The position numbers and the translations under genes are program-made. Below are positions 510-64,000 of a stretch of 64,000 bases of DNA, piece by piece; the stretch's first letter is position 1, and each line of letters starts with the position of its first letter. The stretch comes from a candidate division NC10 bacterium CSP1-5 (lineage in GTDB: Bacteria; Methylomirabilota; Methylomirabilia; Methylomirabilales; CSP1-5), in NCBI GenBank assembly GCA_001443495.1, contig LDXR01000001.1:6002-70001 (forward strand), given 5' to 3'. The notes beneath the pieces were generated by a model. That model was not told the DNA's origin, did no database searches, and was given only the letters and a program-made list of their open reading frames with translations.

Positions 510-1523
510 TCACAGGGTGCGTCCAACGATGGGCGCCAGGGCCCGCATCTGCTCCATCAGTGCGGCGAACCGGCCAGGGATCAGGGCCTGGGGTCCGTCG
601 GATAAGGCCACCTCGGGTTGGGGATGGACCTCGACCATGACCCCGTCCGCCCCCACGGCAACGGCCGCCAGCGTCAGCGGGGCCACGAGATCCCATTTTC
701 CGGCGGCGTGACTCGGATCGACGATGACCGGCAGGTGCGAGAGCTGCTTCAGCGACGGGACCGCCGAAAGGTCCAGCGTATTCCGGGTGTACTCTTCGAA
801 GGTCCGGATGCCCCGCTCGCAGAGGACAATATTGTAGTTTCCCTCGGACATGATGTACTCGGCCGACATCAGAAGCTCCTTGATCGTCGAGCTCATCCCC
901 CGCTTGAGGAGGACCGGCTTGCGGTGGATGCCCACCTCCTTGAGGAGACGGAAGTTCTGCATGTTCCTGGCACCGATCTGGACCATGTCGGCATACTTCA
1001 TCACAAGCTCTGCATCCCGAGGGTCCATCAACTCGCTGACGACCGGCAGCCCGGTCACCTCCCGCACCTCGGCCAGGTATCTCAACCCCTCCTCACCAAG
1101 GCCTTGAAACGAATACGGCGAGGTCCTCGGCTTAAAGGCCCCCCCTCGGAGCAGGGTGGCACCCGCCTTCTTGATCTTGGTCGCCGTATCAAGCAGCATC
1201 TCGCGCCCTTCGACCGAGCATGGGCCGGCAATGACCGCGAGCCGCTCCCCGCCTATCGCTACACCATTGACCTCCACGACGCTTGGCTCGGCCTTGAAGT
1301 CTCGACTGGCGAGTTTGAAGGGCGTCAAAATGGGGAGGACCTTTTCAACGGCGGGCAGGGCCTCAAAAGGCACATTCCGAAGGACCCGCTCATCCCCGAT
1401 GGCCCCGATGATGGTCCGCTCCACCCCTCTGGAGACGTGGGGCTTGAGGCCATGCTGGGTAATTCGCTCCACCACCTGGTCGATGTCCGCCTGGGTGGCG
1501 GTAGAGCGCAAGACGATGATCAT
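510..1523 (-). CDS. aroF: 3-deoxy-7-phosphoheptulonate (DAHP) synthase, AroF/AroA(I-beta) type
   Basis: Condenses phosphoenolpyruvate and erythrose 4-phosphate to DAHP, the first step of the shikimate pathway. 337 residues: an N-terminal ferredoxin-like (ACT-like) regulatory domain (about 1-70) followed by a TIM-barrel synthase. Visible motifs are AGPCSVE (99-105), [16 protein letters not shown] (126-141), QIGARNMQN (182-190), KRGM (207-210), VDPSHAAGK (267-275) and MVEVHP (296-301), matching the metal- and PEP-binding residues of the I-beta class. Its ATG overlaps the hisC stop by four bases (ATGA), so translation is probably coupled. The ACT-like domain is where feedback inhibition acts in relatives; the effector cannot be told here. 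Confidence 0.95.
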
Positions 1524-2704
1524 CTCTTGCTCCTCCCTTCAGTGGGACCCGCGGACCTCGCCGCCGCCGCCACCGTGCCGAGCACTTCGGCCAGGGCCTG
1601 GAGAGCCCGGCTATTTTCCTGGGGTGTTCCCACCGTCACGCGGATATACGTGGGCAGACCATACCCCTCCATGGATCGAACGATGACCCCGTTGCGCAGG
1701 AGGGCGTCCGCAACCGCCTTGCCTTCCACCCCGACATTGACCAGGATGAAGTTGGTGACGCTCGGGATGGTGACAAGTCCCGACGCGTCGAGGCGGGACC
1801 GCATGGTTTTACGTCCGGCCTCGGTGATTCGAAGCGTCTCCTCGAGGTGGGCTGCATCGTCCAGGGCAGCCAACGCCGCTTTCTGGGCCAACGTGTTGAC
1901 GTTGAAGGGCTGCCGCACCCGGTTCAGAAGCTCCACCATTTCCGTGGGGCCGATGCCGTACCCGATCCGCAGTCCCGCGAGACCGTACGCCTTCGAAAAG
2001 GTCCTGAGGGCCAAAAGATAGCGTCCCTCCCGGACATATCGAAGGAAATCCGGCTGAAGATACCGGGGGATATACTCCCGATACGCCTCATCCACCACCA
2101 GGATGACATCGGGTGGAAGCGCCCGCACAAAATCGTCCAGGTCGGTGGGCGAGACGCACGTCCCGGTCGGATTATTGGGGTTGCCGAGAAAGACCAGCTT
2201 GGTTCGGGCGGTCACCGCCTTGAGCATCCCGCGAAGATCGTGCGTGAAATCCTTCAGAGAGACCTCTCGGATTTGGGCCCCCACGGCCTGGCAGACACTC
2301 CGATAGACGACAAAGGCCGGATGGCCCATCACCGCCTCATCCCCCGGTCCCAGGAAGGCTCGGGTGACGAGCTCCAACAGCTCGTTGCTCCCGTTGCCGA
2401 AACAGAGCTCCTCGGGTGTCACCCCGAGGCGCCGACTGAGCCCCTGGCGTAAGGCATAACAGCCGCCATCGGGGTACCGGTGCAGCCCTTGAAGCGCCTC
2501 TCGAATGGCCTGCAGCGCCAGCGGCGAGGGGCCCAGGGGATTCTCGTTGGAGGCGAGCTTGAGCACGTCATCGAGCCCGAGCTCCCGCTCTACCTCCTCC
2601 ATCGGCCTTCCCGGGCTGTACGGGACCAGTCCCAGGATGTGAGGCTGCGCCAACTCTTTCAGCGTTTTCATCTGACGGCTCGTCGTCTGCCCTTCACGCG
2701 TCAT
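1520..2704 (-). CDS. hisC: Histidinol-phosphate/aromatic aminotransferase (HisC family)
   Basis: Class I/II PLP-dependent aminotransferase, 394 residues from the ATG at 2704; an alternative ATG lies 11 codons downstream (2671). Motifs: SNENPLG (52-58), NPNNPTG (175-181), DEAY (205-208) and the PLP-lysine motif SKAYGLAGLR (lysine 238). HisC proteins make histidinol phosphate. In this operon, between pheA and aroF/tyrA with no other his gene nearby, the enzyme may instead, or also, transaminate phenylpyruvate and hydroxyphenylpyruvate, as some HisC paralogues do. That substrate call is inference from context. The gap upstream carries a word repeat rather than a recognisable promoter. Confidence 0.9.
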   Translation of the reverse strand: MTREGQTTSRQMKTLKELAQPHILGLVPYSPGRPMEEVERELGLDDVLKLASNENPLGPSPLALQAIREALQGLHRYPDGGCYALRQGLSRRLGVTPEELCFGNGSNELLELVTRAFLGPGDEAVMGHPAFVVYRSVCQAVGAQIREVSLKDFTHDLRGMLKAVTARTKLVFLGNPNNPTGTCVSPTDLDDFVRALPPDVILVVDEAYREYIPRYLQPDFLRYVREGRYLLALRTFSKAYGLAGLRIGYGIGPTEMVELLNRVRQPFNVNTLAQKAALAALDDAAHLEETLRITEAGRKTMRSRLDASGLVTIPSVTNFILVNVGVEGKAVADALLRNGVIVRSMEGYGLPTYIRVTVGTPQENSRALQALAEVLGTVAAAARSAGPTEGRSKR

Positions 2705-2757: not shown

Positions 2758-3837
2758 CTAGCTCCTGGCCCGGAGCGGTTCCTTGGGGTAAGAGCCTAAG
2801 ACCTTCAGAAAGATGCATTCGTCCTGGAGCCCCTCCAGGGCCGCCTTCACCGGTGCATCCTCGGCATGCCCCTCGAAATCCACATAGAAGATGTACTCCC
2901 AGACCCGGTAGCGGGAGGGTCGCGATTCGATCTTGGTCAGGTTGATCTGGTTCTTGGCGAAGGGCTCCAGCATCCGGTACAGCGCCCCCACCCGGTCCCG
3001 AATCGTGAAGAGGATCGAGGTCTTGTCCTGGCCGGTGACGGCGCACGGCGACTGCCCGATGATCAAGAATCGCGTGAAATTATACGGGCTGTCTTCAATC
3101 CGGGACGCCACGACCTTGAGATCATAGAGCCGGCTCGCCAGCTCGGACGCGATGGCCGCGGCCGTCTCATCCTGGGCGGCAAGCTCGGCGGCCGCCGCCG
3201 TGGAGTGCACCTCGCGAAGCGCGACCCCCACCATGTTCGCCTCGAGCCACTTCCGGGATTGGGCGATGGCGTGAGGATGGGAGTAGATCGTCATGATCCG
3301 CCCCTTCTCTCCGAGCTTCGACAGGAGGTGATGAGCAACCTCCATAAGGATCTCACCGCAGATCTTCAGGTCCGAATCGACGAACATGTCGAGGGTGTGA
3401 CTCACCACGCCTTCGGTCGAGTTCTCGACCGGTACGACCCCGTAGTCCGCCTTCCCCTTCTCCACCTCGGTAAAGACCTCTCCGATACCCCGGAGCGGGA
3501 CGTATTCCGCCAGCAGGCCGAATCGCTTCATGCATGCCATGTGGGTGAAAGTGGCCTGGGGCCCGAGATAGCCCACCTTCAACGGCTGCTCGAGCGAGAG
3601 ACAGGCCGAGAGGATTTCCCGGTAGACCGCCTTGATCCCCCTGTCCGGGAAGGGTCCCCGGCTCTCCCGCGTGAGCCGATCGATGATCTCTCCCTCCCGT
3701 TGCGGGGAATGGTAGGCGATGTTTCCCTTGGCCTTCTCCTCTCCCACGCGCACGACGACCTCGGCCCGGCGATTCAGGAGGTCCAGAATCTGGCTGTCGA
3801 TGGCATCAATCTGCCGTCGAAACTCCTCGATTCCCAT
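2758..3837 (-). CDS. pheA: Bifunctional chorismate mutase / prephenate dehydratase (P-protein)
   Basis: Converts chorismate to prephenate and then to phenylpyruvate. 359 residues from the ATG at 3837, chosen because MGIEEFRRQIDAID is the usual beginning of the AroQ chorismate mutase domain; a longer frame opens at 3888. Domains: chorismate mutase (about 1-85), prephenate dehydratase (about 88-265, with GYLGPQATFTH, VVPVENSTEG and the catalytic EDSPYNFTRF at 248-257), and a C-terminal ACT domain (about 275-350) with the phenylalanine-sensing ESRPSR motif. It follows scpB and starts the aromatic part of the run. Feedback inhibition by phenylalanine is expected from the ACT domain. Confidence 0.95.
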   Translation of the reverse strand: MGIEEFRRQIDAIDSQILDLLNRRAEVVVRVGEEKAKGNIAYHSPQREGEIIDRLTRESRGPFPDRGIKAVYREILSACLSLEQPLKVGYLGPQATFTHMACMKRFGLLAEYVPLRGIGEVFTEVEKGKADYGVVPVENSTEGVVSHTLDMFVDSDLKICGEILMEVAHHLLSKLGEKGRIMTIYSHPHAIAQSRKWLEANMVGVALREVHSTAAAAELAAQDETAAAIASELASRLYDLKVVASRIEDSPYNFTRFLIIGQSPCAVTGQDKTSILFTIRDRVGALYRMLEPFAKNQINLTKIESRPSRYRVWEYIFYVDFEGHAEDAPVKAALEGLQDECIFLKVLGSYPKEPLRARS

Positions 3838-3912
3838 CTTTGCTCTCTTCCGTCTCCCCGTCCACATCTCGATCTGAAGCCCGGCCATTATAGGGAGGAA
3901 TCCGAGGCGGCT

Positions 3913-10825: not shown

Positions 10826-10911
10826 ATCAATTCACTGCCGATCGTTCACAGTGCACAGAGGCGGAGACGTAACGCCGCAAGAAACCGTCAACCGTGAGCT
10901 GTGAACGATGT
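10826..10911. repeat. Inverted word repeat between hpf and rapZ
   Basis: Directly after the hpf stop codon the minus strand reads GTTCACAGCTCACGGTTGACGG. About 25 bases later comes TCTGTGCACTGTGAACGATC, the same GTTCAC word in the opposite orientation. The two halves can pair imperfectly. No promoter for rapZ is evident in it. Confidence 0.5.
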
Positions 10912-30060: not shown

Positions 30061-30125
30061 CGGACTGTGACAAGGTGACTAGTGGTGAGTGGCCTAGTGG
30101 CCCAAGACCTGACACCCGAGACCGC
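30061..30125. repeat. Word repeat between convergent CAAX protease and SAM hydrolase genes
   Basis: Starts at the stop codon on the plus strand: GTGACTAGTGGTGAGTGGCCTAGTGGCCC, built on AGTGG words, with a small GGCC-TAGT-GGCC hairpin. It shares GGCTAGTGG/GGCCTAGTGG words with 2705-2757. It may act as a transcription end between the two converging genes. Confidence 0.5.
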
Positions 30126-33421: not shown

Positions 33422-35800
33422 TCAAAGTCTTTCCCGGCTGCTCGGGGTGAGCTCCAAGACCTCGAAGACGGATGCCGCCTCCGGCATCATGGGGTGGTAC
33501 CTTCCGTGCCGCCAGTCGGGTAGCTGATCGGCGTAATGGCGAGAGAGAGGATCCCCCGAGCTTCCACCCGGAATAACCCAGAGGGACTGGTCGGGGCTTC
33601 CGAGGTCCACGATCTGTCGGTAGGCGGGTCCCACACCGGGCTCAAAGGGATGGGAAAGGAGATAGGCGGCCACATTGACCGTCATCCCATCCCCCGGATG
33701 AGGAAAGGGGCCGCGGTTGAATCGCAAAATCCGGTTCAGGAGGCGACTTCTCCAATCTCGACCGGCGCCCAGCGGGTGTCGCAGGGTCAAGGCATGAAGG
33801 GCACCCCAGGCCCATCGCTCTTCAGCTCCGAGCTCCCCCTCGAGAAACGCCACCGCCTCCTCGAGCGCCCGCCCCACGACAACCGCCCGCCCTCCGGGCA
33901 TCCACTCAGGACCACCCTCCTCCAGGATCCGAGCCACGGGATTGACCGGCAGATGCAGCAGCGAGAAGTAGCCCCGATAGAGCTCTGGAGCGACCTGGTT
34001 GAGCCGATCGGCGAAGACCAAGAAGCGCAGGCGCTCGTAAAAGACTTGGTAGAGTGCCGCCTCTCCACTCTCCGCCGCCATTCGACAATCCCACTGCAGG
34101 AGTCGATCCGCACCCTGTCTCGCCTTGCCCGTGAGCTCCCCGGCCACCGGGGCAAGTACCTGTCTGACCACCGCCCTGGCCTGGAGTGACACCACATCCC
34201 CTTGGATCGCCGCCATGTCCGCCACGTCGAGCCCCCCCCGCTCGAGCAGCTCGATGATCCGTCGGGCCCGATATCCGGGCTCCCACAGATACGTCAGTTG
34301 ATGCGGATACGTCTCATCCACGATCCGGTGATTGGCGGTCGCGATCAGGCCGGAGGGGGGGTTGATCAGGGAGGGAAGTTCGTCGAAAGGGATGTCCCCC
34401 TGCCACTCTGAGGCCCCGGAGGACCCGTCGACGGGAAAGGGGCCGTCTCCCTTTCGGCGCCTCGGAAAACGCCCGGCACAGAAGTAGGCGTAGTTTCCCC
34501 TCTGGTCGGCATAGAGAAAATTCTGGGCGGGCAGGGCGAAGTCCCGGAGCGCGTCCCGAAACTCCTCCAGGTCTTTCGCCCGGGAGATTTTGAGCACGGC
34601 ATCCATGTCTCGCGAGGGCTCGAGCCCCGTCCAGCGGAGGGAGAGCGGCGTATCGAGCGGGAGGATATCGCTGAGCAGGGGGCAGTCGGCACCGCCATGC
34701 GGGATGTACCGTATGGCGATGCGGCGCGCCGGACCGTTACGCACCCGGATTTCCTCCACCTCCGCCTTCAGGCGGCGCCACTCCCCCTGGAAAGCGTACA
34801 AGTGCGGATCTGACGGGTGAAGGGTCTCCCGGTATACGTCGGCATCGTCGGGCATGGCCGAGGTGACGCCCCAGGCTACCTTCGCATTCGCCCCGATGAT
34901 GATGGTTGGAATGCCGGGAACAGTTGCTCCCCCCACATGGTATCCCGCCCCTCTGAGGGAAACCTGGCAGAAGAGGCAGGGCAGGCCCATCGGCAGGTGC
35001 GGATCATTACAGAGCAGGGGATGGCCGCTCTGTGTCCGGCCGGGCCCGACCACCCAACTGTTGCTGCCGCCGATACCGCCACCCAAAAAGCCTTCCCCCG
35101 CCACGATTACCGGCTCCCCCTCCGGGGTCATCGGCAAGAGGGGAAAGAGATCCGGTCGTGTGGCGAACGCCCCCAGCACGAGCTCCGCCCTGGCAGCGAA
35201 ACACAGCATCCAAGCGATGAAACGGCCCACCGCCAGACTGTCTTGGGGTCTCCAGGGCTCGGGTTCGTACCCGAGCAGATAAAACTCCGGAGGAAGGCAT
35301 CGTGCTTCCTGCATCAAGGCCACGACGGCGTTGACACCAGCGGCATACCGCTCGAGGACCGAGCGTGCCTCGGGAGAAATGATCCCGTAAGACGCGTGCG
35401 CCACGCGAACAAAGCCCAAGGCGCGGTGCAGGGAGTCCAGCTGAACGACGGAAGCAGGCTGGAGGCGAGCGCCGGGTCTCACGCCAAGCGGCCGATCCCC
35501 CAGGATCTCCGCGAGCTGGCCTCGAGCCAGCCGTCGATAAAGATCCATCTGCCACAGCCGGTCCTGGGCCATGGCGTAACCAAAGCCGAAAAAGAGGTCG
35601 GAGGCGGCCCGGGCGTGGATGGTGGGGATCCCGAGGCGGTCGCGCGAGATCGCGACGGGCCCGTCGAGACCGACGACCGTCTGTCGCCCGCTCCGCTGCA
35701 AGGTCAGGCGGGATGGCAGAGGTGGGAAGAGGGGCGTGAGGAGACGTGCGGCAAGGAGGGTCAGGAGGCGAAGAGTCCGATCGATTGGCGTGATCGCCAT
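33422..35800 (-). CDS. Penicillin acylase family protein (Ntn hydrolase)
   Basis: 792 residues, made as one precursor that cleaves itself into alpha and beta chains. The N-terminal hydrophobic stretch (about 8-30) may be a signal or anchor. GPVAISRDRLGIPTIHA and GYAMAQDRLWQMDLYRR mark the alpha part. The autocatalytic site is GGIGGSNSWVVGPGRT, with the nucleophile serine at 246 (SNSW) starting the beta chain; NDPHLP follows. Natural substrates of such environmental homologues may be acyl-homoserine lactones or peptides; this cannot be told here. It is co-directional with the M50 protease gene. Confidence 0.9.
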   Translation of the reverse strand: MAITPIDRTLRLLTLLAARLLTPLFPPLPSRLTLQRSGRQTVVGLDGPVAISRDRLGIPTIHARAASDLFFGFGYAMAQDRLWQMDLYRRLARGQLAEILGDRPLGVRPGARLQPASVVQLDSLHRALGFVRVAHASYGIISPEARSVLERYAAGVNAVVALMQEARCLPPEFYLLGYEPEPWRPQDSLAVGRFIAWMLCFAARAELVLGAFATRPDLFPLLPMTPEGEPVIVAGEGFLGGGIGGSNSWVVGPGRTQSGHPLLCNDPHLPMGLPCLFCQVSLRGAGYHVGGATVPGIPTIIIGANAKVAWGVTSAMPDDADVYRETLHPSDPHLYAFQGEWRRLKAEVEEIRVRNGPARRIAIRYIPHGGADCPLLSDILPLDTPLSLRWTGLEPSRDMDAVLKISRAKDLEEFRDALRDFALPAQNFLYADQRGNYAYFCAGRFPRRRKGDGPFPVDGSSGASEWQGDIPFDELPSLINPPSGLIATANHRIVDETYPHQLTYLWEPGYRARRIIELLERGGLDVADMAAIQGDVVSLQARAVVRQVLAPVAGELTGKARQGADRLLQWDCRMAAESGEAALYQVFYERLRFLVFADRLNQVAPELYRGYFSLLHLPVNPVARILEEGGPEWMPGGRAVVVGRALEEAVAFLEGELGAEERWAWGALHALTLRHPLGAGRDWRSRLLNRILRFNRGPFPHPGDGMTVNVAAYLLSHPFEPGVGPAYRQIVDLGSPDQSLWVIPGGSSGDPLSRHYADQLPDWRHGRYHPMMPEAASVFEVLELTPSSRERL

Positions 35801-35827: not shown

Positions 35828-35935
35828 GCTGTGCCTATTACCCAACAGGAATCCAGCGAGTCGTCTCTTCAAGAATCTCCTTCCTTTACCGGTCTTGAGG
35901 AAGCGCTTGCGACATGGGGGACTGCCTCAGAGCAA

Positions 35936-36003
35936 TAGAACATTGGACCGCAATGGAGCATTTCCCCCAAAATCACTCTATTGTTCCACTGCTCCATTGC
36001 TCC
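35936..36003. repeat. Inverted word repeat (CAATGGAGCA family) upstream of the acylase gene
   Basis: Left half: CAATAGAACATTGG then CAATGGAGCA. Right half, in the opposite orientation: CTATTGTTCC, then TGCTCCATTGCTCC. Both halves are made of the words GAGCAATGG and GAACAATAG in shuffled order, about 20 bases apart. The tonB terminator adjoins it. The rest of 35828-35935 holds no recognised gene. Confidence 0.6.
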
Positions 36004-36032
36004 AAAGCAAACGCACTCTGTGCGTTTGCTTT
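36004..36032 (-). terminator. Terminator hairpin of tonB
   Basis: Perfect 13-bp stem, AAAGCAAACGCAC (36004-36016) and GTGCGTTTGCTTT (36020-36032), 3-base loop. It overlaps the tonB TAA stop codon. The descending arm ends in TTTGCTTT, a short T-rich tail on the minus strand. Confidence 0.75.
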
Positions 36033-36948
36033 AGTGAGACGGTCTCATCGGTCTGCCCAGGTCAACGTAGCGAAAATTTCCAACAATGGTGAGACGCTGA
36101 AAGGTGAACTTGGACGGAAAGGGGCCATAGGGCGCCGCGGCCCGTACGGCCTCGACCGCCGCGTCATCCAGGACGGACGTCCCGGAGCTTTCGGTGATCT
36201 TGACCTGGGCCAGACCTCCTTCCGGGGTGATGCTAAAGACCAGGACGAGGTTTCCAGTGAGACCAGTTTGTCTCGCGTACAGCGGAATCTGCCAATGTCG
36301 CTCGATCCGACGCTTGACGTCGGCAAGGTAGGGGGCAAACTCCGAACTCTTGGTCTCCAGTGAAACGATGCGTTCGCCGGTTCCGGTATCCCCCCCCTGT
36401 CCGGCGTCCACGCCTTGCCCTTCCACGGAAGCTCCCCGCCTCCCCAACTTTGCGATCTCTTCTCGGAGGGAGGGACGATGAGCGGTGGGCGGGCTCGTGG
36501 ACGAATCCGGCCGCGCCAGGGATTGCGATTCTCCGGCGGGCTCGGATGTGGGAGCCGGCGGCGGGGCGGATTGCCGGGGGACGGGAGGCGAGGCGGGCGG
36601 TTCTGCAACCCTTCCAGCCTCGGGAGAAGGCGAAGCACGTCCGGGCTTCGGAATCCCTGAGCTTTCGGGGGTGGTCGCCGGGCCCGGAACCCTTCCGGGA
36701 CCCCGGGCCTCACTCGCGACCTGGGAGATATCCTTGCTCTTCACCGGCCCGGCTGCCTCTGGAGCCTCCGGTTGATCGATGAACCGGGGGATCTCACTCG
36801 GAGGAAGCAGACGGACCATCAAGGGAGAGGGGGCCGGGAGATAGGGGGTCGGGATCTGGGTCTTCCAGAGGAAGACCGCAGAGAGCAGGTGCAAGACGAG
36901 GGAAGCTCCGAGCGATCGGTAAAGAAGAACACGCTCCTCCCCCGTCAT
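36031..36948 (-). CDS. tonB: TonB-family energy transducer
   Basis: 305 residues from the ATG at 36948. An N-terminal membrane anchor (about 12-28, SLGASLVLHLLSAVFLW), a long proline/serine/glutamate-rich periplasmic linker (about 45-200), and a C-terminal TonB domain (about 215-290, VKRRIERHWQIPLYARQTGLTGNLVLVFSITPEGGLAQVKITESSG). It transmits proton-motive force to outer-membrane receptors. ExbB/ExbD genes are not in the window. It begins 22 bases after recN. Confidence 0.9.
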   Translation of the reverse strand: MTGEERVLLYRSLGASLVLHLLSAVFLWKTQIPTPYLPAPSPLMVRLLPPSEIPRFIDQPEAPEAAGPVKSKDISQVASEARGPGRVPGPATTPESSGIPKPGRASPSPEAGRVAEPPASPPVPRQSAPPPAPTSEPAGESQSLARPDSSTSPPTAHRPSLREEIAKLGRRGASVEGQGVDAGQGGDTGTGERIVSLETKSSEFAPYLADVKRRIERHWQIPLYARQTGLTGNLVLVFSITPEGGLAQVKITESSGTSVLDDAAVEAVRAAAPYGPFPSKFTFQRLTIVGNFRYVDLGRPMRPSH

Positions 36949-36970: not shown

Positions 36971-38689
36971 TCATCCTGCACCCTTCCGCTGCTGTTGCTT
37001 CCAGCTCGCTGCAGCCCGCAACAACTCGCGGGCGTGCTTGAAGGGGGTCGTGGATTTTTCCGACCCCCCGAGCATACGACCCAGCTCTTCCACCCGCTCC
37101 TCTTCGGCAAGGGGGAGCACCCGGGCCTCGGTCCGCCCTCGCTCCACCTTTTTCTCGACCCGGAGGTGCACATCGGCAAAGGCCGCGATCTGGGGGAGAT
37201 GGGTAATGCAGATGACCTGGCGCTCTCGACTGACCCTCCAGAGCTTCTTGCCGACCACCTCCGCCATGCTCCCGCCGATCCCCGCATCCACCTCATCGAA
37301 GAGCAGGGTGGGGGTTTGGTCCACGGAGGCCAAAATGTTTTTGAGGGCCAGCATGGTCCGGCTGAGCTCACCCCCCGAGGCGATCTTTCCGAGCGGTCTG
37401 AAGCCCTCGCCGGGATTCGGCGCAAAGAGGAACTCTGCCTCTTCTAGGCCGGTCGGCCGGAGCGACCCTCGCCGATCCTCTCCCGCAACCCGCTTGAGCT
37501 CCACGCGGAAATCGGCCCGCGCCATCCCCAGCTGCTTGAGTTCACCCACCACCGCCTGGGCGAGCCGCTTCGCCGCCTCTGCTCTCCCGCTCGAGAGGCG
37601 CTCCCCCCGTTCCCAGAGCGCTTCTTCCGCACCCCGGATCTCCCCGTCGAGACTCACCAGTCGCTCCTCCGCTCCCTCCAACCGCTTGAGTTCGAGGGCG
37701 GCCCGTTCTCCATACGCGAGAATTTCGCCGGCAGTAACTCCATATTTTTTCTTCAGACGACTGAGGATGTGGAGGCGCTCCTCAATGGCCTCGAGCCGAC
37801 GAGGATCGAAGTCGAGCCGGTCCCGGTAGTCCCGAAGGGCGAGAACCACCTCCTTCAGCAGGGTCTTCGCCTCGTCGGCCATCGCCCCCACCGGGGAAAG
37901 GCGTGCGTCAATCCGTCCGGCCTCCCGGAGGCGGGCCTCAACAGCGAAGAGTGTCGAAAGCATCCCTCGCTCGTCCCCCTCAAGACGCCCATAGGCCTCC
38001 TCCACCGCCAGGAGGAGCTTCTCGTGATGGGTGAGGATGGCGCGCTCGGCCTGCACCGCCTCCTCCTCTCCCTCGGTGAGATGTGCGGCATCGATCTCCC
38101 GGATCTGGTGTTCCAGCAGATCCTTGCGCTGGGCCTTTTCCCGTTCGCCCTGCTGGAGTGCGTCCCGCTCTGCGTTGAGCGCCTGCCATCGGCGATAGAG
38201 GGCCTGATAGTCCTGGACCTCTTCCGTGAGAACCCCAAAGGCATCCAGCAGCTCCAAATGGCGCCGGGGATTCTGCAAGAGCACGCTCTCGTGCTGGCCA
38301 AGGATATCGACCAGATGCTCCCCCAGCGCCTTGACCATGGCCACTCCTGTCATCGTCCCGTTCACGTAGGCGCGGCTCCTCCCCTCCCGGGCCAGGTGGC
38401 GCCGCACGACAAGGTCGTCCTCCTCCGGCATGGGGATTCCCTGTGCAGCGAGGAGATCCTGCACGGGGCCGGCATCGGGAATCGCAAAGGCGGCCTCGAC
38501 CACTGCCTCTCCCTCTCCAGATCGGATCAGCTCGGTATCCCCTCGCGCCCCCAGGGCCAGGCTCAGGGCACTGATGACAATCGACTTGCCGGCCCCCGTC
38601 TCGCCCGTCAGCACATTCAGGCCGAAGCCGAAATTCGCCCGCACCTGATCAACGACGGTAAAGTGTCGGATGGCGATTTCGCGCAACAC
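36971..38689 (-). CDS. recN: DNA repair protein RecN
   Basis: SMC-like ATPase of double-strand-break repair. About 573 residues from the GTG at 38689. I prefer this start because an AGGGG box lies about 8 bases upstream and the next codons, LREIAIRHFTVVDQVRANFG, are the usual RecN start; the ATG at 38719 lies inside an intergenic word repeat. Walker A GETGAGKS near residue 30, a long coiled-coil middle, the ABC signature region GGELSRTMLALK and Walker B TLLFDEVDAGIGG near the C-terminus are all visible. Confidence 0.95.
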   Translation of the reverse strand: MLREIAIRHFTVVDQVRANFGFGLNVLTGETGAGKSIVISALSLALGARGDTELIRSGEGEAVVEAAFAIPDAGPVQDLLAAQGIPMPEEDDLVVRRHLAREGRSRAYVNGTMTGVAMVKALGEHLVDILGQHESVLLQNPRRHLELLDAFGVLTEEVQDYQALYRRWQALNAERDALQQGEREKAQRKDLLEHQIREIDAAHLTEGEEEAVQAERAILTHHEKLLLAVEEAYGRLEGDERGMLSTLFAVEARLREAGRIDARLSPVGAMADEAKTLLKEVVLALRDYRDRLDFDPRRLEAIEERLHILSRLKKKYGVTAGEILAYGERAALELKRLEGAEERLVSLDGEIRGAEEALWERGERLSSGRAEAAKRLAQAVVGELKQLGMARADFRVELKRVAGEDRRGSLRPTGLEEAEFLFAPNPGEGFRPLGKIASGGELSRTMLALKNILASVDQTPTLLFDEVDAGIGGSMAEVVGKKLWRVSRERQVICITHLPQIAAFADVHLRVEKKVERGRTEARVLPLAEEERVEELGRMLGGSEKSTTPFKHARELLRAAASWKQQQRKGAG

Positions 38690-38703: not shown

Positions 38704-38745
38704 GTGATGAGTGAATCACTAATCACTAACCACCAATCACTGTCG
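38704..38745. repeat. Palindromic word repeat between nadK and recN
   Basis: GTGATGAGTGA (38704-38714) and TCACTAATCAC (38716-38726) form a near-perfect palindrome; further CACTAAC-CACC-AATCAC words run to 38745. It begins a few bases after the nadK stop codon on the minus strand (GTGATTGGTGGTTAGTGATT) and resembles the words at 63960-64000. Confidence 0.6.
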
Positions 38746-38750
38746 TTCGG

Positions 38751-39623
38751 TTATCTTTCGCCCCACTTGAGCTTTGACCGAAGGATCTCGTAATAGCTCT
38801 TCTTCGGGGAAACGATCAGGGTGATCTCCCGGTCCGCCCGCCGAATCTCGATCAGATCCCGATACCGAAGAGGGAAACCCACCTGCCCGTCCAGGGTGAG
38901 ATACACATCTTCACCCTGGGATTCGAGGGCCACCCGCACCCCCACCTCTTCCGGAACCACCAGTGGACGGTTTGTCAGGCCGTGAGGACAGATCGGGACC
39001 AGGATGAGCGCACGCATAGTGGGAAAAACGATCGGCCCGCCGGCGGAGAGGCCGTAGGCGGTGGAGCCGGTCGGCGTACACACGATGAGACCATCAGCGC
39101 GATACGTGGTCACGTATTCCTGTTCTATGTAGATCTCGAGCTCGACGATACGGGAGAGTGCCCCCTTCGTGATCACCGCATCGTTCAAGACGACATATTC
39201 AGCAACCCTCTTTTCCTGACGCTCCACCGTCACCTGGAGGAGCATCCGGCGACTTCCCCGATACTTCCCCTCCAGGACCGCCCCCAGGACCGGGTAGAGC
39301 TCATCCAGCGTCATCGCCGTCAGGAAACCCAATCCCCCGAGGTTGACCCCAAGGATCGGGATCTCCTCCGACTCCACCAACCTGGCCACCGAGAGTAACG
39401 TCCCATCCCCGCCGAGCACCACGACGAGGTCTGCCATTCTCGGGACATCGGTCTTGGGTACCACGGTCGCCTCTGCCCCGACAAGCGCCGCCGTGTCCGC
39501 ATCCAGGACGACCTCGCGGTCTTTCGCTCTGAGCCAGCTGATCAGGTGCTCGACCACTTCCCGGGCCTCCGGCCGGTGTGGTTTTGCCACGATGCCCACG
39601 CGTTTGAAGACTTTCGTTGCCAT
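38751..39623 (-). CDS. nadK: NAD kinase
   Basis: Phosphorylates NAD to NADP. 290 residues from the ATG at 39623; the frame is open upstream into tlyA but without similarity. Motifs: LVVVLGGDGTLLSVAR (the GGDG site), GVNLGGLGFLT, VLNDAVITKG, and YRADGLIVCTPTGSTAYGLSAGGPIV. Nine bases downstream of tlyA, with recN next, a common order (tlyA-nadK-recN) in several phyla. Confidence 0.96.
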   Translation of the reverse strand: MATKVFKRVGIVAKPHRPEAREVVEHLISWLRAKDREVVLDADTAALVGAEATVVPKTDVPRMADLVVVLGGDGTLLSVARLVESEEIPILGVNLGGLGFLTAMTLDELYPVLGAVLEGKYRGSRRMLLQVTVERQEKRVAEYVVLNDAVITKGALSRIVELEIYIEQEYVTTYRADGLIVCTPTGSTAYGLSAGGPIVFPTMRALILVPICPHGLTNRPLVVPEEVGVRVALESQGEDVYLTLDGQVGFPLRYRDLIEIRRADREITLIVSPKKSYYEILRSKLKWGER

Positions 39624-46849: not shown

Positions 46850-46899
46850 CGCTAGAATGCTAGGAAGCTGGTATGCTGGGATGCTCTAGCCTTCTAGCG
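46850..46899. terminator. Long imperfect hairpin between convergent lptG and ahcY
   Basis: CGCTAGAATGCTAG (46850-46863) pairs with CTAGCCTTCTAGCG (46886-46899) with one mismatch in 14; the loop contains further GCTGG-ATGCT words. Placed between converging genes, it is well suited to a two-way transcription end. It is made of the same GCTAGGA-type words as 48171-48328. Confidence 0.6.
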
Positions 46900-46913: not shown

Positions 46914-48170
46914 TCAGGTCCCGGACTCCCAGGACCGGAGATAGCGCTGCTGCTCCGCGGTCAAGCTATCGACCTTGACCCCCATCGAGGCGAGCTTAAG
47001 GCGCGCCACTTGAGCGTCCACCGCTTTCGGCACCGGGTACACGCGATTGGCGAGTCGCTGGGCGTGTTGGACCGCATACTGCACCGACAGGGCCTGGTTG
47101 GCAAAGCTCATGTCCATCACCGAAGCTGGATGACCCTCCGCAGCCGCAAGATTGACCAACCTCCCCTCGGCCAACAGATACAGTCGCCGCCCATTCCGCA
47201 GTGTGAACTCTTCCACGTGTTCCCGAACCATGCGCCGCTTCTTTGCCAAGGATCGAAGCCCCTTGATGTCGATCTCCACATTAAAGTGGCCCGCATTGCA
47301 CAGGATGGCACCATCCCGCATCCGCTGGAGGTGCTCCCGGCGTACCACCTGGGTGTTGCCCGTGGCGGTGATGAAGACCTCTCCCACGCGGACCGCCTCG
47401 CGCATCGGCATGACGCGGAACCCGTCCATCACCGCCTCCAGCGCCCGCACGGGATCTATCTCGGTGACAATGACGTGCGAGCCCATCCCCTGAGCCCGGG
47501 TCGCCACGCCGCGGCCACACCAGCCGTATCCTGACACCACCACGTGCCTGCCGGCCAGCAAAACATTGGTCGCACGGAGTAAGCCATCCAGGGTGCTCTG
47601 CCCGGTCCCATACCGGTTGTCAAAGAGGTGTTTCGTATCGGCATCGTTGACGGCGATGATCGGGTACCGGAGAACCCCCTTCTCCTCCATGCGGCGCAGA
47701 CGCACAACCCCCGTGGTGGTCTCCTCAGTCCCGGCGATAACCCCGGGGAGCAGATCGGTCCGCTCGCCATGGAGGACCGAGATCGTATCGGCCCCGTCGT
47801 CCATGGTGATATGGGGGCGAATCTCCAAGACGCTCTGGATATGCTTGTAATAGGTCCGCCGATCCTCTCCCCTGCGGGCAAAGACTGGAACGCGCAGGTG
47901 TTTGACGAGCGAGGCAGCGACATCGTCCTGCGTGCTCAACGGGTTGCTGGCGCACAGGGCCACCTGCGCCCCGCCCGCCTTGAGCGCCCGAAGGAGATTG
48001 GCCGTCTCGGTCGTCACATGGAGACAGGCCGAGACCCGGATCCCCCGCAGGGGCCTCTCCTTGCTGAATCGCGCCTCGATATGCGCGAGGACCGGCATGA
48101 ACCGCCCGGCCCATTCGATCCGTTTACGCCCTTTGTCGGCGAGGCGGAGATCTGCGACGTCGTATTCCAC
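46914..48170 (-). CDS. ahcY: Adenosylhomocysteinase (S-adenosylhomocysteine hydrolase)
   Basis: Splits SAH into adenosine and homocysteine, keeping methyltransferases active. 418 residues; NAD-binding [10 protein letters not shown] about midway, with [44 protein letters not shown] and [14 protein letters not shown]. The C-terminus ([16 protein letters not shown]) is the short form lacking the KPDHYRY tail of the longer eukaryote-type enzymes. Downstream of metK on the same strand; the gap holds a word repeat. I searched that gap for an SAH riboswitch and found no convincing match. Confidence 0.96.
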
Positions 48171-48328
48171 ACTCCCCTCCGCTAGAAGGCTAGGACGCTA
48201 GGACGCTGGCACGCTAGAAAGCCAATGGGCTGGAACACCAGAACACTTCAAGACTGGGACGAAAGAAAGTGGCAGGGTGGAAGGACCCTCCGAGCCTCCT
48301 AGCTTTCGAGCGTTCCAGCCTGCTCGCA
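48171..48328. repeat. Large word repeat between metK and ahcY
   Basis: Plus strand: GCTAGAAGGCTAGGACGC and GCTAGGACGCTGG repeats near 48181-48215, a middle section with CTGGAACACCAGAACAC, then CTCCTAGCTTTCGAGCG and TTCCAGCC in the opposite orientation (48292-48320). The two ends use the same words inverted. The whole metK-ahcY gap is occupied. Confidence 0.6.
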
Positions 48329-48345: not shown

Positions 48346-49506
48346 TTAGGAGCCGAACCGCCCCGCCTCTTGCGCCAAATGCTCGGCGCGGTCGGTCCGC
48401 TCCCACGTGAAGTCCGGCTCGGTGCGGCCGAAGTGGCCATAGACCGCCGTCTGTCTGTAGATAGGCCGACGCAGGTCCAACGCCTTCAGGATCGCTGCGG
48501 GGGTGAGTTCAAAGTGCTTGCGGACCAGGGAACAGAGAATCTCATCCGGGATTTTCCCCGTCCCCTTGGTGTCGACCATGACCGAGACCGGCTCAGGGAT
48601 GCCGATGGCGTAGGCCAACTGCACCTCGCATCTGTCTGCGAGTTGGGCCGCAACGATATTCTTGGCGATATAGCGGGCCATATAGGAGGCGGACCGGTCG
48701 ACTTTGGTCGGATCCTTTCCCGAATAGGCACCACCCCCATGGCTTCCGACCCCTCCATACGTATCGACAATCACCTTCCTCCCAGTCAGTCCCGTGTCGC
48801 CCTTGGGTCCACCAATGACGAACCGACCTGTTGGATTGATGTGAAAGACGACCTGCTCCGAATCCAAGAGCCCGGGGGGGACGACCGGCAAGATCACTTG
48901 CTCGACGATGTCTTCCCGCAATTGTTGGAGCGTCACATCGGGGCTGTGCTGCGCGGCAACCACGATGGTGGTGACCCGGGTGGGCTTCCTGTCCACATAC
49001 TCCACGGTGACTTGAGATTTTCCGTCCGGGCGGAGGTAATTCAGGATATTCTTCTTCCGTGCCTCAGCCAGTCTGCGGCAGAGCTTATGGGCCAGCATGA
49101 TCGGCATGGGCATCAACTCGGGGGTCTCGCGCGTGGCATAACCGAACATCAGTCCCTGGTCGCCGGCCCCCTGAATATCCACCCCCATCGCGATGTCCGG
49201 AGATTGCTCCTGAATGGCTGTGATCACCGCGCAAGTTTCATAGTCGAAACCGTACTTGGCCCGCGTGTACCCGGCATCGCGGATGGTTTCCCGCACGATC
49301 CTGGGGATGTCGACGTAACATCTGGTAGTAATCTCGCCGGCCACGAAGGCCATGCCGGTTGTGACCATGGTCTCGCAGGCCACCCGGCCGTACGGATCCT
49401 GGGCGAAGATCGCGTCCAAAACGGCATCGGAGATCTGATCCGCGATCTTGTCGGGATGGCCCTCGGTGACCGATTCTGATGTAAACAGATACCGTCCCGG
49501 CGGCAT
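48346..49506 (-). CDS. metK: S-adenosylmethionine synthetase
   Basis: Makes SAM from methionine and ATP. 386 residues from the ATG at 49506, which has GAGGAGGG about 8 bases upstream (an ATG six codons earlier is less likely). Motifs [36 protein letters not shown] and [17 protein letters not shown] (the P-loop-like signature). Fifteen bases downstream of kdsC, so kdsC-metK and perhaps ahcY form one unit. SAM supply beside ahcY and a methyltransferase-rich cluster makes a methyl-cycle group. Confidence 0.97.
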
Positions 49507-62802: not shown

Positions 62803-62880
62803 CGCTATCTCGCTGGGTCTTGGGTGTTGGGTGCCGGCTGTCGGGTGTCGAGTGTTCGATGCTGGGTGTTCGGTGTTCCG
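62803..62880. repeat. AACACCC word repeat inside the 3' end of manC
   Basis: On the minus strand a run of AACACCG, AACACCC, AGCATCG, AACACTCG, ACACCCG, ACAGCCGG, CACCC, AACACCC, AAGACCC. The run is translated as the last about 22 residues of ManC (TPNTQHRTLDTRQPAP...) and, in another frame, would extend ugd upstream. It is all but certainly an intergenic repeat that the manC frame has read into. Confidence 0.75.
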
Positions 62881-63932
62881 TCGGATGTAATCAACGTCAA
62901 GAGCTCCCGAATGTCTTGTGCTCGAGACTTCGGACAGATCAATAGGCCGTGCTCTGTTTCCGCAATGATCAGGTCTCGGAGTCCGATTGTCGCGACAACC
63001 TTCTCGTCCTGTCCGTAGATGATGCAATGTGACGTATCCAGACCCGCGTGCCGACCGATAACGACATTCTCTGCTTTATCCCTGGGCAGGATACGCCCGA
63101 GGGCCGTCCACGAGCCCAGATCATCCCACCCGAAGTGACCGTGGACCATCCAGATGTTTTCTGCCGCTTCGAGCACCCCGTAATCCACCGATACCTTCTC
63201 CAGCGTGGAGTAGACTGTTGCCAGGACATTGGTGTACGCAGGCGTTCCAAGGGCGGACCGAATCTGCTCCAGTCCCGACCAATGGGCAGGCAAATGGCTC
63301 TTGAGTAATTGTTGAAGCGTCCGATTCTGCCATATGAAGATCCCGGTATTCCAAAAGTAGTCCCCTGCCGCCACAAAGCGCCTGGCCGTCTCGGCGTCGG
63401 GCTTTTCGCGAAATCGAAGGACCGGATAGATATCCTGAAGCATCTCCGACCCAATGTGCATATACCCGTAACCCGTCTCAGGGCGATCTGGCCTTACCCC
63501 GATAACAACGGTGCTCTTTCTCTCCTGGGCAAGCGTGACCGCCTTTTCAAGAGAGGCGCGGAACGCCGAGGCCCCCTGGATGCAGTGATCGGCAGGGAGG
63601 ACCACGGCAATCGCATCCGGATCTCGACGCTCAAGGAACACGGAGGCCAAGCCAATACAGGCGGCCGTATTTCTCCCCACGGGCTCGCAGATGAGATTAC
63701 CCGCGGGCAGCTCCGGCAGCTCCTCGTGAATGCGAGCAACATGCCCCTCGCCGGCCACCACGATCTGCCGGTCAATGGGAATCAAGGGCTCGATCCGTTC
63801 GACCGTCCTCCTGAGGAAAGTCTTTCCGCCCAGGAGACGGAGAAACTGTTTGGGAGATTCGGGTGTGCTCAAGGGCCAGAACCGCTCCCCGGAACCTCCC
63901 GCCATGATAATCGCATAAACATGATGGTTCAT
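62805..63932 (-). CDS. manC: Mannose-1-phosphate guanylyltransferase
   Basis: Makes GDP-mannose from mannose-1-P and GTP. 375 residues from the ATG at 63932, single-domain form without the phosphomannose isomerase extension. AIIMAGGSGERFWPLSTPESPKQFLRL is the nucleotidyltransferase signature; PADHCIQG, RFREKPDAETARRFVAAGDYFWNTGIFIW, and HFGWDDLGSW follow. The last about 22 residues are encoded by an intergenic-type word repeat, so the true conserved end is near LLTLITSDG. A word repeat also precedes the start codon. Confidence 0.93.
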   Translation of the reverse strand: MNHHVYAIIMAGGSGERFWPLSTPESPKQFLRLLGGKTFLRRTVERIEPLIPIDRQIVVAGEGHVARIHEELPELPAGNLICEPVGRNTAACIGLASVFLERRDPDAIAVVLPADHCIQGASAFRASLEKAVTLAQERKSTVVIGVRPDRPETGYGYMHIGSEMLQDIYPVLRFREKPDAETARRFVAAGDYFWNTGIFIWQNRTLQQLLKSHLPAHWSGLEQIRSALGTPAYTNVLATVYSTLEKVSVDYGVLEAAENIWMVHGHFGWDDLGSWTALGRILPRDKAENVVIGRHAGLDTSHCIIYGQDEKVVATIGLRDLIIAETEHGLLICPKSRAQDIRELLTLITSDGTPNTQHRTLDTRQPAPNTQDPAR

Positions 63933-64000
63933 TGCGTTTCTTGGGTTTCTTGGGTCCGGTCCCATCAATCGCCAGTCACAAACCACCAATCAGTGGCTTC
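63933..64000. repeat. Word repeats upstream of manC
   Basis: Minus strand: GATTGGTGGTTTGTGACTGG, then GCGATTGATGG, then ACCCAAGAAACCCAAGAAACGC up to the manC start. The first part resembles 38704-38745; the ACCCAA words resemble the 5' end of tlyA (40455-40492). The element continues beyond the window. Confidence 0.55.

Follow-up and report, generated by a model that had tools for sequence, protein, structure and literature searches.

What process could fill the spacers of one bacterial genome with runs of short words that are alike in kind and different in letters? The question is raised by the gap at 35936-36003 of the window, i.e. the whole stretch of 64,000 nucleotides analysed here (C1:6002-70001; genome G000, 2.77 Mb in 40 contigs). 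An earlier note had placed this gap among ten that each hold runs of a gap-specific word, and had suggested either a common generating process or a common role such as RNA 3' end formation. The gap adjoins a PvdQ-like acylase ORF (33422-35800), whose relatives are spread widely over other phyla. The acylase shows 94% identity to nzgw238, the sequence that we call G005, and 73% to BB-18, both Candidatus Methylomirabilota / Methylomirabilis MAGs, and such MAGs are the nearest named relatives of G000, an uncultured bacterium akin to the methane-oxidising Methylomirabilis. The statistics were obtained on 864 kb, which is 31% of G000 (the window and stretches of contigs C2-C5), with genes called by an in-house codon-score script and not by a standard caller. 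The features found at the listed intervals are the following.

479-509, - strand: single arm of GTGGCTR words (CCAGCCAC on the + strand), adjoining the stop of ORF 510-1523(-); self-similarity p=0.005.
2705-2757, + strand: GTGGCTR / CACCATT words that form a short hairpin, with ORF 1520-2704(-) on one side and ORF 2758-3888(-) on the other; p=0.005, and on the - strand fold z -3.7.
10826-10911, + strand: GTTCANR ... TGAAC hairpin, arms 28/28, loop 24; p=0.019.
30061-30125, + strand: convergent gap with weak GTGACTR words, which by themselves do not reach significance; p=0.18.
35930-36002, + strand: imperfect hairpin of 8-mer words with left arm (AGCAATAG AACATTGG ACCGCAATGG AGCA), loop and right arm (TCTATTGTTCCACTGCTCCATTGCTCC); from genome copies, fold and polarity.
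36004-36032, + strand: perfect palindrome AAAGCAAACGCAC-TCT-GTGCGTTTGCTTT, the constant second part of a dispersed element; from alignment and fold.
38704-38745, + strand: GTGATTR / AATCACT words in the spacer that separates ORF 36971-38689(-) from ORF 38751-39623(-); TRF period 7, p=0.001.
46850-46899, + strand: GCTAGGAN ... CTAGC hairpin in a convergent gap beside ahcY; TRF period 8, p=0.001, fold z -4.3.
48171-48328, + strand: long GCTAGGAC ... CCTAGC element, flanked by ahcY (46914-48170) and metK (48346-49506); p=0.001.
62805-62880, + strand: nine TTGGGTG/TTCGGTG words within the 3' end of a mannose-1-phosphate guanylyltransferase ORF (- strand); TRF period 7 x9.
63932-64000, + strand: mixed words (TTGGGTTTC; CACCAATCAGTGG) cut off by the end of the window, where contig C1 (70,001 bases) ends too; from TRF and self-similarity.

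The word runs themselves are real: nine of the ten intervals beat dinucleotide shuffles (p 0.001-0.019), the exception being 30061-30125. Their description as gaps held except for 62803-62880, which is the 3' end of ORF 62805-63932(-). There the words encode the last 25 residues of the protein (C-terminus ...DGTPNTQHRTLDTRQPAPNTQDPAR), and the match to the mannose-1-phosphate guanylyltransferase family stops at residue 377 of 394. The comparison with shuffled sequence, which the earlier note had named as a possible refutation, gave the same picture in the genome sample: 35 of 277 gaps, and 3 of 277 matched coding windows, had a lag self-similarity that none of 200 dinucleotide shuffles attained. 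Degenerate arrays of periods 7 and 8 were about 25 times denser between genes than within them (75 against 2.9 per 100 kb for period 7, 27 against 1.2 for period 8), and in this sample no intergenic excess was observed for period 6 (2.9 intergenic, 11.8 intragenic) or period 9 (7.8 and 8.0). The words are not specific to their gaps, however: by clustering, most of them fall into about ten families common to the whole genome, which include GTTCANR, GTCAGCN, GTGATTR, CCGATGA, GTCCAAN, GCTAGGAC and AGCAATRG.

The interval 35936-36003 had to be redrawn, the true unit being a dispersed repeat of 105 bp at 35930-36034 (fold z -8.2). About 20 further copies are present in G000, 74-93% identical and with loop and palindrome in common, and the polarity was the same in 7/7 copies examined. 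The end of the palindrome, CTAAAG, provides the TAA stop (36031-36033) of a TonB-like ORF on the - strand; this gene ends differently in G003 and in BB-18, both of which have no element at the junction. At the same junction in G005 the palindrome and arms are kept, and the loop differs and contains a REP-like insert. The 105-bp family is present in G004, G005 and G001 and absent from G002, G003 and G006. A REP-like repeat, GACGGCTCGACTGAGCTCGCCGAAGTC, was also seen in G000 spacers (C2:51471, C2:286714, C4:15219, C5:64863, L132 and L135); all copies examined lie inside or beside word arms, as if hairpin loops were its preferred landing sites.

That several runs come in two inverted halves, as had been remarked, was borne out in the genome sample. 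The words pair as inverted arms, with one polarity per family in 50 of 51 pairs of the G000 sample: 15:0 for GTTCANR left and TGAAC right (family A), 11:0 for GTCAGCN (B), 7:0 for AGCAATRG (G), 5:0 both for GTGATTR and for CCGATGA left with TCATCGG right (these two being E and C in either order), 2:0 in J and in D, and 1:1 in H. Such pairs were observed in 45 of 456 co-directional gaps, 2 of 49 convergent gaps and none of 57 divergent gaps, with 2 in shuffled gaps; the co-directional rate per kb would arithmetically give about 11 elements in the divergent gaps. On the sense strand the elements fold strongly (median z -3.7, 36/45 below -2, control gaps 0.1), and many of them lie inside operons between ribosomal-protein genes, or between tRNA genes. 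The frequent start at a stop codon adds little to the observation that short co-directional gaps are filled by the elements: of 49 elements, 27 are no more than 15 nt from a stop, against 22.9 by uniform placement. We therefore rejected a special stop-codon target, and the true placement bias is that between co-directional and divergent gaps. We also rejected stems perfectly matched through compensatory change, because the arms of one element pair only slightly better than arms taken from different elements of the same family (p=0.015 in GTTCANR, no significant difference in the other families).

In full-length elements, a gene lies between arms of the same word. It belongs to PF05635 (23S_rRNA_IVP, the 23S rRNA intervening-sequence / S23 four-helix-bundle protein), and within the genus we found it inside arms of GTTCANR (L163, L167, L169), GTCAGC (L161), GTGATTR (L164, in G000), GCTAGGAC (L166), GTCCCC (L170) and TTGGGTG (L160). 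G000 has one such gene only, that with GTGATTR flanks, and the window has none; the ORF-bearing partners of GTTCANR, GTCAGCN, CCGATGA and GCTAGGAC are in congeners and not in G000. By a single flank inverted-repeat statistic, 17 of 39 PF05635 genes scored at least 17, against 0 of 814 ordinary G000 genes, and 22 of 39 scored at least 14, against 4 of 814; clear arms are lacking at about a third of the PF05635 loci (score below 12 in 20 of 58). In 44 of 48 cases the PF05635 ORF and the ORF upstream of it run in the same direction. The proteins match PDB 2gsc and are under purifying selection (dN/dS 0.04-0.18); we know of no nuclease or transposase activity of the four-helix protein.

The same layout, PF05635 within arms, was observed in Bacteroidota, Ignavibacteria, KSB1, Desulfobacterota and others. 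Among genomes reached via an unrelated acylase, 35 of 50 carry PF05635, against 0 of 14 control genomes, and the genes so reached are again flanked by inverted heptamer arms. Within NC10, one period-7 array was found in 130 kb of a family without PF05635 and 25 in 223 kb of PF05635-bearing relatives. Genome G074 has no PF05635 match and has a GTCAGC-type array within the 20 kb examined (L270). Two PF05635 genes of different MAGs (L201, L202; 80% identical) share an upstream stretch (..GTCAAGTTAACCGGCT..) without word arms, which is another context for this family. As for the AGCAATRG 8-mer family at 35936, it was never found with a PF05635 ORF and has the extra palindrome, and for these reasons we assign it to the same class by its architecture only.

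Word and protein subfamily co-vary across phyla. Among elements in different gene contexts, 13 of the 33 pairs whose proteins are at least 50% identical had similar arms, against 23 of 951 other pairs; the pairs are not independent, and the signal is confined to those at least 50% identical. A correlation between protein identity and the similarity of arms over all pairs was rejected, as it amounted to a trend (Mantel p about 0.08). The GTCAGC group unites proteins from two NC10 families and one Ignavibacteriae MAG, and the CAAGRCG pair unites one Bacteroidetes MAG and one Desulfobacterales MAG. L162 has a different word from L163, L167 and L169 at 53-55% protein identity.

We then compared the same gaps in related species for turnover, another check suggested beforehand, and found both an empty/occupied junction and word swaps. 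Between two genes which we take, from general knowledge of such sequences, to be those of methylmalonyl-CoA mutase and epimerase, G000 has TAG-CC-ATG and the junction is empty; in G005 a 0.5-kb GTTCANR|PF05635|TGAAC element lies between both genes, and this same element also follows the first gene in G006 and G002. At this one clean empty/occupied junction we observed inverted ends and no target-site duplication. In G006 (L203), a second, partial epimerase start is present 3' of the four-helix element and before the full epimerase gene, which suggests a local duplication at insertion. Between rpmJ and rpsM, a hairpin separates the stop from the ribosome-binding site in five of six congeners, with GTTCANR and GTGATTR words in G000 and GTCAGC or CCGATGA elsewhere. 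Of the orthologous gaps, 19 had a hairpin in one or more of the species; the word was shared in 9 of these by a strict word-class scan, which overlooks some swaps; it had changed in about 8 by reading and in 4 by script, and one gap was without element. In G006, a GCTAGGAC hairpin is nested within a GTCAGC hairpin. The proposal of a common generating process thus stands in this form: the words make up the arms of a single class of inverted elements, and orthologous gaps stay occupied while the word changes between species. In G000, two apparent EF-Tu 3' ends (..VSEIVT*; C2:165681-165801 and C2:181847-181962) are followed by the same element of about 115 bp, which suggests that gene conversion extends past the stop codon.

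The word runs are, in our opinion, probably the arms of inverted selfish elements that form hairpins and have inserted into transcribed spacers, for the most part between co-directional genes; the majority would be copies of intervening-sequence-type elements that have no ORF. In a full-length element, the left arm would hold a word of 7 or 8 nt in 3-6 degenerate copies, followed by a small PF05635 ORF of the S23/IVP type, usually in sense direction, and by a right arm in which this word is inverted. In G000 most copies would have lost the ORF, or never had it, and remain as hairpins of 50-120 nt. As to mobility, we infer a mechanism in which the elements move as units and the four-helix protein may recognise its own word, as DNA or as RNA stem, and aid movement or maintenance. 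Both the 'reshuffling' and the word swaps could arise when one element inserts into the hairpin of another and the older arms are then lost. Sites in RNA spacers would be tolerable since a stem there may be processed, or else ignored, in the way that RNase III acts on 23S rRNA intervening sequences.

Other explanations account for part of these data. Words might only expand and contract locally, by replication slippage and arm-to-arm template switching, then drift by mutation and be tolerated where harmless, with no mobility and with the four-helix gene as a hitch-hiker; the words of separate families are indeed only a few mutations apart, the internal structure is degenerate and, according to Mrazek as cited in PMC4679880, period 7 dominates slippage-type repeats in bacteria. 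We nevertheless consider such a local origin unlikely, given the same few words in the same polarity at unlinked loci, the 105-bp element with its many copies and common loop and palindrome, the junction either empty or occupied by a 0.5-kb insert, and the co-variation of word and protein subfamily across phyla. Under selection for RNA elements, intercistronic hairpins would be kept because they serve mRNA processing or stability, as RNase III sites or exonuclease barriers, and the words could vary freely since only the stem counts. This agrees with the co-directional placement, the sense-strand folding and the continued occupancy of gaps as words change; it seems to us quite improbable, as it leaves unexplained why particular words have a fixed polarity, why a four-helix ORF lies in the loop and why junctions at conserved gene pairs can be empty, and the stem partners are barely better matched than random family members. 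A later, secondary use as RNA elements is compatible with the selfish-element reading, and the sense-strand folding would allow the suggested role in RNA stability, or one in processing.

Palindromes of the REP/REPIN type, moved by a RAYT (Y1 transposase), are likewise small and dispersed in spacers, and G000 does contain one Y1 gene and the separate REP-like repeat nested in hairpins. The arms of period 7 or 8 and the unique loops differ from REP anatomy, however, in line with the earlier statement that the runs are neither simple tandem repeats nor REP elements nor IS ends; the elements associate with PF05635 instead, and no GACGGCTCGACTGAGCTCGCCGAAGTC copy lies within the 3.3-kb Y1 locus. 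With a single Y1 gene and no repeat near it, this origin was rejected as very improbable. We give hardly any credence to intrinsic terminators or other 3'-end signals: the hairpins are near stop codons, but only 1 of 45 is followed by at least 4 T, and many are inside operons, as in the ribosomal-protein cluster, or between tRNA genes. The word hairpins are thus not terminators, since T runs are lacking, and the suggested role in 3' end formation is not upheld. A known RNA family was also rejected, as Rfam finds one tRNA in the window and nothing else. So was a reverse transcriptase as driver (group II intron or diversity-generating retroelement), no PF00078 being found in G000, which is 99.7% complete, nor in G001-G004.

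Since the longer word hairpins carry the same four-helix gene as the rRNA inserts, two unexplained genome features look like one widespread selfish family. It is possible, and we propose it tentatively, that S23/IVP proteins are the sequence-specific factors of a cross-phylum superfamily of mobile hairpins, each subfamily with its own 7-8-nt word, that the heptamer repeats of many bacteria and the 23S rRNA intervening sequences are both its products, and that no known transposase or reverse transcriptase is needed. On the selfish-element reading, orphan S23/four-helix-bundle genes, rRNA intervening sequences and inter-gene word repeats in many phyla would have one testable explanation, and a candidate function could be sought for a four-helix family without known role (PDB 2gsc). 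Through these elements intercistronic RNA would also change rapidly, in a way that current annotation overlooks.

In open-access papers, a search that took in few subscription papers or preprints, we found none that joins intergenic word hairpins to PF05635 genes. Avd, the accessory protein of diversity-generating retroelements, is a four-helix bundle whose fold is related to that of the PF05635 protein; unlike Avd systems, G000 has no reverse transcriptase. Like small dispersed repeats, MITEs and REPINs (PMC3116915), the word elements are short, non-coding, dispersed, palindromic and apparently moved in trans, but they have arms of 7-8-nt words, no link to RAYT and no target-site duplication seen. 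With the cyanobacterial heptamer repeats and the TAACTGA repeats of Beggiatoaceae (PMC4679880) they share period 7, the intergenic location and a few words common to distant phyla. The TAACTGA repeats are described as exact direct repeats before start codons, with no carrier and no evident mobility mechanism (PMC4679880), whereas the word elements are degenerate, made of two inverted halves and linked to a protein gene, and one genome has several words. The cyanobacterial type (STRR) is defined by 7-nt units in tandem within spacers; the word elements agree with it in period and place, with degenerate units and inverted halves.

The nearest likeness is to the 23S rRNA intervening sequences of Coxiella and Leptospira (PMC4990558). 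That of Coxiella has an S23p ORF, 28-bp inverted ends and tandem heptamers GACAGAT ahead of the ORF, is excised by RNase III and is suspected of mobility (PMC4990558). Common to both are terminal inverted repeats that form a long stem, a PF05635-type ORF in the loop, a total of about 0.4-0.5 kb, the sense orientation, the suspected mobility and, in Coxiella, heptamers beside the ORF; here the stem-forming repeats occur in the word elements generally, and the ORF between arms in the full-length congeneric elements but not in the ORF-less copies of the window. The arms of the word elements consist wholly of degenerate words, most copies have no ORF, and the ORF is under purifying selection, whereas that of Coxiella is decaying (PMC4990558). 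Intervening sequences lie in helix 45 of 23S rRNA; the word elements, since they are sited between protein genes and tRNA genes, work like these sequences rather than being 23S intervening sequences themselves.
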